Shown: in pieces, positions 35,066 to 38,280 of the stretch
How the letters are laid out: each line of letters begins with the position of its first letter
How positions within the stretch are numbered: position 1 is the first letter of the stretch
Assembly (NCBI GenBank): GCA_027019785.1
Contig: JALUWF010000144.1
Location: 1 to 46,844, forward strand
DNA from: Mariprofundus sp.
GTDB taxonomy: Bacteria > Pseudomonadota > Zetaproteobacteria > Mariprofundales > Mariprofundaceae
Direction of reading: 5' to 3'
Length of the DNA: 46,844 nt
Notes under the pieces: generated by a model
Told to the model about the DNA's origin: nothing
Seen by the model: the letters and a program-made list of their open reading frames with translations, nothing else
Databases searched by the model: none
Made by a program: the position numbers and the translations under genes

Positions 35066-36028
35066 TTAGCGAATAATGATATTACTGCCTTTGCCGTATT
35101 TCGGATCGGCCTCCGGATCGCTAATCAGCAGCGTACTGGCGCCGCGCTGACCGGCATCTGCATTGGCATCTGTCAACAACATATTCGATGCATGGCCAGC
35201 CGGCGTAACAATATCCAGCGCTGCTGCTTCAGCGACGCCAACCTGCGCCGTCTGTATATCATAGCGCACATTGACCGGATTACCGTTGAGAAACACGCGA
35301 TCCCAGATGCCGCCGGCGACATGAAAAGCGACCGGCATGTTGATGTTGGCGTTGAGGAAATAGATGCGCACCCGTTCGCCCGGCTTGGCCATGAGCACGC
35401 GACGGGCGTCTGAATCGTGCAGGGGATCATATTTGAATGCACGCCCGTTGATCAGGCTGCGTCTCCAGCCAATGTTGCGAATCATGTTCTGATAATTTTT
35501 CGCATCAGGAAACAGCTGCGACTGCACCAGTACATATTCCCGGTCCGGCCTGGGGTACTCATCCGTATATGCTTTCGGCGCAACAATCATGATACCGAAC
35601 ATGCCTCGGGCAATATGCTGCACCATGGGCGTTGCGTCACAGTGATACATAAACACGCCGGGACGCCTGGCGACAAAGCTGAACCGTTTCACATGACCTG
35701 GCCTGATTGTTGCGAATTCATTGAACAGGTCAACCTCGGCGGCGCTGAAATCGACAGAGTGCGACTGCCTGTTCTTTTTGGGGTTGGTAAAGCTGACATG
35801 GATGGTATCGCCGACTGTGGCGCGCACAACCGGGCCGGGAATCGTGCCGTTATAGGTCCATGAAGGGTAGGATTCACCCTGATTGGAAACAACGCTATGC
35901 CCCTCAATCACCACGAACTGAACATGAACATCCCCCGCATAGGCGTACGGCATGCCAACGGACAGAAGCGCCACAAACAGCGGTAGCATCACCCTCCGCA
36001 ACAACCATGAAACTCCGAGCTTAGTCAT
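35066..36028 (-). CDS. NirK-like two-domain cupredoxin lacking part of the type-2 copper site
   Basis: Periplasmic two-domain copper protein, 320 residues, signal peptide ending MPYAYA before GDVHVQF. The NirK order is clear: YNGTIPGPVVRATVGDTIHV, HSVDFSAAEV, GVFMYHCDATPMVQHIARGM. The type-1 copper ligands are complete (His90, Cys130, His138, Met143). The NirK catalytic Asp has an equivalent (Asp93) and the catalytic His may be His236. Of the three type-2 ligands only His129 is clear: the HxVDFH second His is Ser95, and the third aligns with Asp287 (LLTDANA). A canonical nitrite reductase is therefore doubtful; electron transfer is an alternative. ATG 36028 overlaps the cytochrome stop by 8 bases and has AGGAGG upstream. 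Confidence 0.78.
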   Translation of the reverse strand: MTKLGVSWLLRRVMLPLFVALLSVGMPYAYAGDVHVQFVVIEGHSVVSNQGESYPSWTYNGTIPGPVVRATVGDTIHVSFTNPKKNRQSHSVDFSAAEVDLFNEFATIRPGHVKRFSFVARRPGVFMYHCDATPMVQHIARGMFGIMIVAPKAYTDEYPRPDREYVLVQSQLFPDAKNYQNMIRNIGWRRSLINGRAFKYDPLHDSDARRVLMAKPGERVRIYFLNANINMPVAFHVAGGIWDRVFLNGNPVNVRYDIQTAQVGVAEAAALDIVTPAGHASNMLLTDANADAGQRGASTLLISDPEADPKYGKGSNIIIR

Positions 36029-36779
36029 GATGCGCCTCCTGTGGCGACATAGAAAGCGCCGCAAGATAGGAGGCCAGCTTCTCGATATTCTCCTCGGAGA
36101 TATGTCTGCTCGGCATCCATATCTTCGGATCCCACAATTGCGGACTGCGGATATAACTGCGTATAAAGGCTTGCGTCAGCCGTCGCCCCGCTGAATAGAG
36201 CTCCGGAGCGGAGGTCCCGCCGACACCCGGCGCAATTTGATGACATATCTGACAGCTATAGACATGCTTGAATAGCATACCGCCACGCGGCAACACTTCT
36301 GAAATGCCCACCTTCGGCTGATGCAAAAACCGGTTGATTCTGAGCGTGCTTGCTTTGAGCTGCATCAGCGCTTCAGCTGCATCAGCTGCATCAGCTACAT
36401 TCAGAGCCGGATGCATTGGCAGCGCCGGCGCACCAGCGCTGCCAGCCTCTCCTTTGCTCTTGATGTAGGCACTGTACGCCATGCCTGCCGGACGGATACG
36501 CGTGGGGTGCTGCAACCATGTCTCCATCCACCTGCGACGATATTTGTCTCCGGCATAGAACAGGTCAGGCCCCTTGCGCGCTATCAGTGCGGCCAGAGTG
36601 CGCGGCGCCGGGCCGCTCAAATTATGACAGGTGACGCACTGCTGCTTGAGTAGCGCCATGCCGTCATGCCCTGCATACGCCGGCACCGCAGAAAAACAGG
36701 TTAACAGGCCCGCAAACAGAATCAGGAATCGGAAAAACAGTTGGCTACAGGACATGTACGGAAATCTGGCATTACTCAT
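36021..36779 (-). CDS. Periplasmic diheme cytochrome c
   Basis: A 252-residue exported protein. The hydrophobic leader (about 12-36, ending VPAYA) precedes two class I cytochrome domains with heme sites CVTCH (48-52) and CQICH (176-180); Met100 and the Met in IWMPS are likely axial ligands. The linker carries a 9-base tandem repeat (36373-36399) that encodes an Ala-Asp-rich ADAADAAEA stretch. Start ATG 36779 overlaps the stop of a possible small gene as TAATG; ATG 36755 is an alternative. It sits between the copper oxidase and the NirK-like gene and probably passes electrons between them. Confidence 0.85.
   Translation of the reverse strand: MSNARFPYMSCSQLFFRFLILFAGLLTCFSAVPAYAGHDGMALLKQQCVTCHNLSGPAPRTLAALIARKGPDLFYAGDKYRRRWMETWLQHPTRIRPAGMAYSAYIKSKGEAGSAGAPALPMHPALNVADAADAAEALMQLKASTLRINRFLHQPKVGISEVLPRGGMLFKHVYSCQICHQIAPGVGGTSAPELYSAGRRLTQAFIRSYIRSPQLWDPKIWMPSRHISEENIEKLASYLAALSMSPQEAHHD
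36373..36399. repeat. 9-bp tandem repeat inside the diheme cytochrome gene
   Basis: Three units, TCAGCTGCA, TCAGCTGCA and TCAGCTACA, in the inter-domain linker. The unit is a multiple of three, so copy changes would only lengthen or shorten the Ala-Asp linker. Confidence 0.85.
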
Positions 36780-36974: not shown

Positions 36975-38054
36975 TTAATCTGCCTTGCGATGGTGACGGC
37001 GATGCTTGCGTTCAAGCGGCTGCCCCTTGAATACAGCCTGGTCAAACTTTCCATAGCCTTTCTTCAAGGACTCGGCATAGAAGAAGTCGGGCTGATATTT
37101 CACATCCTTCCATACATACCAGTCATCCTTGGGATTGCCTGCATATTCAATAATGGTCACAGCACCACCGGGAAACTTGCCGTTATTGGTGGACTGGTAA
37201 TCGATATGATCGTGGAAGATGAAGCGCCCGGAATTATCCATATTGATAAATACATCGTTATGGGAACCCGGAATAATCAACTGCGTATCCACATAATAGG
37301 GATCCTTGATCGGCAAACCGTCCTTGAATGCGACCAGCATATCATGACCATGACTGTGCATGGCATGCATGGTGTTGCCGGCCCCGATAAAGCGGACCCG
37401 CACGAAATCGCCGTGTTTGACCCGGAGCGGCTGATCCAGCGGGAATGACCGGGCGTTAATCGAGAAATAGTTGCGTTTGTCGTTCGGGCCGCCGCCGGTA
37501 CCGTATTTATCGGCCGCTGCGGATTCCCAGCTGCTCATCATCATGATGATATCTTTGGTCACCTTTTTCTCAAGTGCTGTCGGTTTCTTCGGATCAACGA
37601 CGATTGGGCCCCACATGCCTCGAATGCCCGTGTGCTCGTTGGCGTTGACGTGGCAGTGATACCACATGGTACCGGGTTTTTCGGCCACCCAGTGATAAGT
37701 GAATGTTTCACCAGGCTTGATACCGGGACCCGGCTGGGTAATGCCCGGCACGCCGTCATTATTCCAGTTCTTGTGCTGATAAAATCCGTGCCAGTGAATG
37801 GTGTGGGGCAGTGTGGTGTGGTTGGTGACATGTACGCTGACATCATCGCCTTGCCGCACATGAATCAACGGCCCGGGCACCTGGCCGTCAAAACCGAACA
37901 CCTTGTATTTCAAATCCGGAGCGACCTGAATGGTCACCTCATCAATACTCATACTGACATCATAATGTTTGGCCCATGCTGATGCAGTAGCCGTCAACAT
38001 CATACATGAAAAAAACAACAGAAACGCAGACCGTTTCATACTATTTACTATCAT
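36975..38054 (-). CDS. Two-domain multicopper oxidase (type C, Nitrosomonas BCO/NcgA-like)
   Basis: Exported copper oxidase of 359 residues, signal peptide ending TASAWA. All four His-x-His motifs of the trinuclear centre are present: HWH 87-89, HCH 133-135, HSH 233-235 and HDH 281-283. A type-1 copper site occurs only in domain 1 (His84, Cys134, His141, Met147), which defines the type C architecture known from the Nitrosomonas europaea blue copper oxidase. The end is basic and His-rich (KHRRHHRKAD). ATG 38054 is chosen for the GAGGAGGG just upstream. The gene order with a cytochrome c and a NirK-like gene matches ncgABC-nirK. The substrate is unknown; Cu(I), Fe(II) or phenolic compounds are all conceivable. 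Confidence 0.85.
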   Translation of the reverse strand: MIVNSMKRSAFLLFFSCMMLTATASAWAKHYDVSMSIDEVTIQVAPDLKYKVFGFDGQVPGPLIHVRQGDDVSVHVTNHTTLPHTIHWHGFYQHKNWNNDGVPGITQPGPGIKPGETFTYHWVAEKPGTMWYHCHVNANEHTGIRGMWGPIVVDPKKPTALEKKVTKDIIMMMSSWESAAADKYGTGGGPNDKRNYFSINARSFPLDQPLRVKHGDFVRVRFIGAGNTMHAMHSHGHDMLVAFKDGLPIKDPYYVDTQLIIPGSHNDVFINMDNSGRFIFHDHIDYQSTNNGKFPGGAVTIIEYAGNPKDDWYVWKDVKYQPDFFYAESLKKGYGKFDQAVFKGQPLERKHRRHHRKAD

Positions 38055-38131: not shown

Positions 38132-38170
38132 AAGATATAAAACGTTTATATCTTATATAAGATGCATCTT
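38132..38170 (-). promoter_or_regulatory. NsrR-like inverted repeat upstream of the copper oxidase operon
   Basis: Arms AAGATATAAA (38132-38141) and TTTATATCTT (38145-38154) form a 23-base dyad, the length and AAGAT...ATCTT edges of NsrR-type (Rrf2 family) operators. Four bases on, AAGATGCATCTT (38159-38170) is a perfect 12-base palindrome with the AAGATGCAT half-site common in NsrR sites. Both lie 78-117 bases ahead of the oxidase start. The region is too AT-rich to choose a -10. Confidence 0.5.
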
Positions 38171-38280
38171 GAGAATATGTTTCATGCCTGTCAAGCGCCA
38201 ATTTCATGATGTAGATATAAGATACCGGACGGACAAGAATTGAGGCTTGGTTTCCACGCGCCAGTTCATAGAATGCGAGC

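Follow-up and report, generated by a model that had tools for sequence, protein, structure and literature searches.

A stretch of 46,844 nucleotides from an assembly of the iron-oxidizing marine bacterium Mariprofundus sp. (GCA_027019785.1, contig JALUWF010000144.1; hereafter the window) carries a cluster encoding, in order, a two-domain multicopper oxidase similar to NcgA, a diheme cytochrome c, and a NirK-like protein (Table 1). These are followed by genes that we take, from their sequences, to be mraZ, rsmH, and ftsL, while a presumed purL lies divergently upstream. The top PDB matches of the oxidase were 2zwn (E 2.9e-149) and 3g5w, the blue copper oxidase of Nitrosomonas europaea (E 3.6e-114), and an NcgA-like oxidase and a c-type cytochrome thus neighbor a nirK-type gene, as in the ncgABC-nirK cluster of N. 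europaea. Unlike that cluster, the window has a single diheme cytochrome between the oxidase and the NirK-like gene, and a nirK with complete copper sites is absent from it. In a sister Mariprofundus MAG (G007), the order is purL, oxidase, cytochrome c, intact NirK, NirK-like remnant, mraZ, rsmH, and ftsL, and this matching gene order indicates one inherited locus. The intact cytochrome–NirK pair, located at the purL–mraZ locus in the sister species and on a separate contig (C372) in the window genome, may have moved.

Table 1 Features of the NirK-like locus and related loci (window coordinates unless a locus is named).
Feature	Location	Strand	Basis or remark
NirK-like protein without type-2 copper site	35066..36028, stop included	-	ORF, PDB match, predicted fold
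Asp299-Ala300; Ala300 (GCC) in place of the third type-2 His	35165..35170	-	alignment
His248, catalytic His position, kept	35321..35323	-	alignment
His141 (type-2, kept), Cys142, His150, Met155 (type-1, kept)	35600..35644	-	alignment
Ser107 codon AGC, first type-2 His lost	35744..35746	-	alignment
Asp105, catalytic Asp position, kept	35750-35752	-	alignment
His102 codon, type-1 ligand, kept	35759..35761	-	alignment
Direct repeat GCAGTCGCA, 9 bp	copy 1 35760-35768; copy 2 35517-35525	-	
Diheme cytochrome c (CVTCH, CQICH)	36021..36779	-	Pfam Cytochrome_CBB3/Cytochrom_C
Two-domain multicopper oxidase, NcgA-like	36975..38054	-	PDB matches
NsrR-like operator AAACATATTCTCAAGATGCATCTT with TTGACA	38159-38182; TTGACA 38189-38194 (span 38159..38194)	-	upstream of oxidase/operon
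Promoter-plus-operator element	window 38159-38194; L037 9093-9140; L040 3242; L041 5515; L042 8835-8884; L043 4687-4734; L044 5549; L048 8155-8202; L049 8799-8847		
Promoter-plus-operator element	L032, L034		also before oxidase genes
Sister MAG orthologue of the NirK-like gene	L038 7123-7914 (G007:C14)		243-bp in-frame deletion, frame open

The longer open reading frame of the NirK-like gene (35066-36064, reverse strand, 332 aa) uses an alternative TTG start; translation likely begins at the ATG at 36028, which is preceded by an AGGAGG motif (36035-36040) and overlaps the stop of the cytochrome c gene by 8 nt. At canonical loci, the cytochrome and NirK frames lie ~330–440 bp apart. The window cytochrome c is related to the genes preceding canonical NirK, relative to which it is fast-evolving, and it retains both CxxCH motifs. 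Its long branch in the tree and its departures at 15 of 73 invariant sites (0–12 for 12 others) indicate that it diverged along with its NirK-like neighbor.

Residues are numbered here from the 332-aa frame, i.e., 12 higher than in an initial sequence-only reading, whose interval 35160-35760 spans residues ~102–302. The protein is probably a secreted two-domain cupredoxin. Its top PDB sequence match was the N. europaea NirK (4kns, E 9e-83, 44% identity), which was also nearest to the predicted monomer (mean pLDDT 73.2, pTM 0.78), with the same two-domain fold at a TM score of 0.87 (Z 32.1, rmsd 2.8, 282 residues aligned). The NCBIfam profile TIGR02376 scored the protein at 130.4 bits, under the 296.3-bit curated cut-off; this score does not discriminate, since the two intact NirK paralogues of the window genome, on contigs C116 and C372, also fall short (170.6 and 157.5 bits). 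As a control, the monomer of the C372 paralogue was modeled with a pLDDT of 74.4; its confidence was somewhat higher near the third-ligand region, to which we give no weight. The cytochrome–NirK pair on C372 (L037, 6858-11843) is flanked by potassium- and sulfate-type transporter genes, and an IS200-like transposase lies ~2.3 kb from it.

Ligand positions were read from an alignment of N. europaea NirK and related genes. As the sequence-only reading had proposed, the type-1 copper site has all four of its ligands (H102, C142, H150, M155; His90, Cys130, His138, and Met143 in its numbering), whereas the type-2 site is dismantled, with one of three ligands retained (H141, its His129). The second His of the HxVDFH motif is replaced by Ser107 (its Ser95). 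His fills this column in N. europaea NirK as well as in each of the 19 canonical rows covering it. The third ligand position needed correcting: it had been assigned to Asp299 (Asp287), but the alignment places the third type-2 His at Ala300, the motif being DH in relatives and DA in both the window protein and the sister MAG orthologue. Asp299 aligns with the Asp in "VDH" of N. europaea NirK, a residue shared by every relative covering the column; being conserved before the third His, it is no substitute ligand. His291 (His279), named beforehand as a type-2 candidate that could overturn the observation, was likewise rejected as a replacement, as three canonical proteins combine a His at that position with a complete set of type-2 His. 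The catalytic Asp and His are both retained (D105, H248). Sequencing error or chance is an unlikely source of the ligand losses, because a His codon could become AGC or GCC only through two or more base changes, Ala300 recurs in a separate sister MAG, and all 17 full-length canonical relatives in the class are HHH. With an intact type-1 and a dismantled type-2 site, the protein is unlikely to be a nitrite reductase of known mechanism.

This combination was rare among the genomes surveyed. Across 78 genomes of the class, NirK matches (E <= 1e-25) were found in 15, yielding 23 rows that represent 22 genes, one of them appearing twice. All 17 full-length canonical genes are HHH, in three partial ones every type-2 position that is covered is His, and the third type-2 His is missing only in the window gene and its sister MAG orthologue, so that the NirK-like gene occurs in 2 of the 78 genomes. 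Among 398 Pseudomonadota genomes drawn, 34 had a match, including the 15 within the class; 16 of the 19 outside it were read and all 16 were HHH, a count that excludes weaker matches, among them oxidases and archaeal proteins with an unalignable third position. A scan of viral contigs returned no relative, and a scan of genome contigs returned three loci, namely two archaeal NirK-like loci and one on contig JALUYG010000014.1 of a Mariprofundus sp. MAG, which we infer to be the G007 locus. In a Nitrososphaera sp. MAG (L065), a NirK-like protein reads HSLNFHAA in the profile alignment, with Asn at the catalytic Asp position. The suggestion of a subfamily sharing a Ser/Asp pair found no support in any broad form, as the homologue survey gave a single orthologue; this one has Ala300 too, but the stretch containing residue 107 and the type-1 site is missing from it. 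We found no description of natural type-2 His loss in a bacterial NirK in the literature searched, which is not proof of absence. The NirK sequences of PMC4770552 were, according to the excerpt consulted, screened for copper sites, and copies without type-2 ligands may therefore not have been retained in that set.

The sister MAG orthologue lacks 243 bp exactly between the two copies of GCAGTCGCA, both of which are intact in the window. With this in-frame deletion the type-1 site is lost entirely, along with position 107, and His248 remains in place. The deletion looks recent, since the orthologue has changed at just one more invariant site; it could be an assembly artefact, although the sequence contains no N. 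No obvious ribosome-binding site was seen by eye before this orthologue, and the best match to the window's cytochrome c in the sister MAG, at 51%, is not a close copy. Having lost the type-1 site, and without the same kind of coupled cytochrome gene, the sister copy suggests that the function is dispensable there, and the deletion counts against a universal role of the NirK-like protein.

Divergence between the two orthologues is constrained. Over the 207 codons common to both, dS was 0.51, dN 0.070, and dN/dS 0.138 (bootstrap range 0.077–0.223), an estimate that covers the sequence outside the type-1 half, the latter being retained in the window gene only. By comparison, dN/dS was 0.032 for a canonical NirK pair (~4x lower), 0.117 for the C116-type NirK, 0.121 for purL, and 0.142 for rsmH. 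The 17 canonical NirKs share 120 invariant sites, 19 of which are altered in the window protein; in a leave-one-out count, each canonical sequence has at most 6 deviations. The region shared with the sister orthologue holds 84 of these sites and 17 departures, 16 at the same site in both orthologues (15 with the identical residue, including A300) and the 17th in the sister MAG alone. This pattern points to a burst of change followed by constraint, and the loss of the type-2 site thus appears to be old, with the gene kept by purifying selection afterwards.

Change was unevenly spread along the protein. Identity to four canonical proteins is 68% over residues 102–182, where five canonical pairs share 62–78% among themselves, but only 47–50% over residues 44–101, against 66–81% between canonical pairs. 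Residues 263–332 show an excess of changes (nominal p 0.026); residues 138–160 retain 11 of 11 invariant sites, a difference from the rest that is not significant (p 0.21). Gene conversion was considered as the cause of the conserved middle and rejected, codon identity at identical residues being flat along the gene. In the NirK tree, the window gene pairs with its sister orthologue (support 100/100) on a long stem, and the nearest canonical clade of this degenerate pair is weakly supported (48/96). The closest sequence relatives are canonical NirKs of the Mariprofundus family (51–61% identity).

Several cytochrome–NirK and oxidase operons of relatives in this bacterial family have in common a TTGACA followed by a box similar to AAAGATATATTTAAAATGCGCCTT, which is reminiscent of the NsrR consensus, and a similar element precedes the window operon (Table 1). 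Several of the upstream regions compared lack the box (e.g., G010, G042, and C116-type genes). In a scan with a matrix built from nine other operons, the window's top score (15.6 bits) fell on this element, the next being 11.4, and 1 of 30 simulated sequences exceeded it (best scores 8.5–16.7 bits). Because the box was initially spotted by eye and the training sites were hand-chosen, we treat this match as supporting evidence only. Against the NsrR consensus gATGyAT-N5-ATrCATc given in the excerpt of PMC1274295, which also reports NsrR control of N. europaea nirK, the right half of the window box (ATGCATC) is perfect and the left half poor. The window genome encodes three Rrf2 proteins, the nearest of which matches NsrR at 132.6 bits, below the cut-off of 182. 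An NsrR-like Rrf2 gene (L092 1423-2357, G000:C4) lies divergent to a small ORF that resembles a truncated haemoglobin by eye and has no NCBIfam match.

Taken together, the best reading of these sequences is a NirK paralogue that may have turned into an electron carrier or an accessory subunit for nitrite/NO stress. We give an even chance to its more specific form, in which a Nitrosomonas-type NirK paralogue lost its catalytic type-2 site and was kept in the role of a one-electron carrier or buffer rather than that of a nitrite reductase. Such a protein would fold as a NirK-like trimer, bind one blue copper per subunit, receive electrons from the cytochrome c of the adjacent gene, and act in a periplasmic nitrite/NO-stress system without performing nitrite chemistry. 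The complete type-1 and incomplete type-2 sites, a dN/dS like those of rsmH and purL, the departures common to both orthologues, the conserved type-1 half, the coupled cytochrome, the NsrR-like operator, and the stability of a type-2-depleted R. pickettii NirK (see below) all argue for this electron carrier; the type-1 deletion in the sister MAG and a dN/dS well above that of the canonical pair argue against it. The sequence-only reading had offered an electron carrier or another metal geometry, of which the carrier remains a reasonable lead, whereas the Asp ligand does not stand. A decaying duplicate heading towards a pseudogene has an outside chance. Two ligands are gone, the gene was seen in few genomes of the class, and the sister copy combines a deletion with the lack of an obvious ribosome-binding site; yet the frame is open in both species, the window gene has a strong Shine-Dalgarno sequence and a gene overlap, the dN/dS after the loss of the third His is low, and a single invariant site has newly changed since the split.

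In CuNiR trimers, type-2 sites lie between subunits, with the third ligand at the interface. As the site is built from two adjacent subunits, mixed trimers of the NirK-like protein and intact NirK would contain an incomplete site at each mixed interface, and the protein could in this way be an accessory pseudo-subunit tuning or stabilizing NirK. The remnant encoded directly behind intact NirK in the sister MAG and the retention of 101 of 120 canonical invariant sites fit this arrangement, which we nonetheless consider unlikely: the intact NirK genes of the window genome are on other contigs, and divergence is concentrated in residues 44–101 and 263–332, the latter holding the third ligand. It is quite improbable that His141, Asp105, and His248, all present in the window protein, with His248 shared by the sister, hold another metal such as non-heme iron in the old pocket, because with so many invariant sites kept anyway the retention of two catalytic residues is unremarkable, and the model is a monomer with a mean pLDDT of 73. 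A long shot is the fuller version of this idea, in which the emptied pocket would bind a different metal between subunits through these two His and one carboxylate, so that an iron oxidizer would have gained a new periplasmic redox enzyme from a nitrite reductase scaffold. Least plausible is a protein that is still a nitrite reductase with other residues standing in for the lost ligands; His291 and Asp299 are near the third-ligand position in sequence, but His291 has His counterparts in three canonical HHH proteins and Asp299 is invariant there.

Several known systems resemble the electron carrier proposed here in part. N. europaea NirK differs in having His at the first and third type-2 positions, which are Ser and Ala in the window protein. 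Zetaproteobacterial nirK with ncg genes, i.e., the same kinds of genes as in the window, has already been published as a nitrite reductase (PMC3603346), the excerpted text of which makes no mention of a copy without the type-2 site. In the excerpt of PMC9038741, Ca. Angelarchaeales encode two-domain blue copper proteins that resemble NirK but have no type II/III centers, some near electron-transport genes. Like the window protein, these are two-domain cupredoxins related to NirK and apparently without type II copper; unlike it, they have two type I centers and are called ancestral, whereas the window protein has only one type-1 site and descends from canonical NirK. A type-2-depleted Ralstonia pickettii NirK (PDB 6fja) keeps its structure without type-2 copper, as described in the excerpted part of PMC6038957, but was made in the laboratory by omitting copper, with the ligands still in place.

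Environmental surveys use nirK as a marker of nitrite reduction, and a copy that appears to be under selection without its catalytic ligands means that nirK counts can overstate the capacity for nitrite reduction. The NirK-like protein would also be a case in which nature has set the electron-transfer copper apart from the catalytic one, and its operon includes a likely partner cytochrome together with an NcgA-like oxidase.
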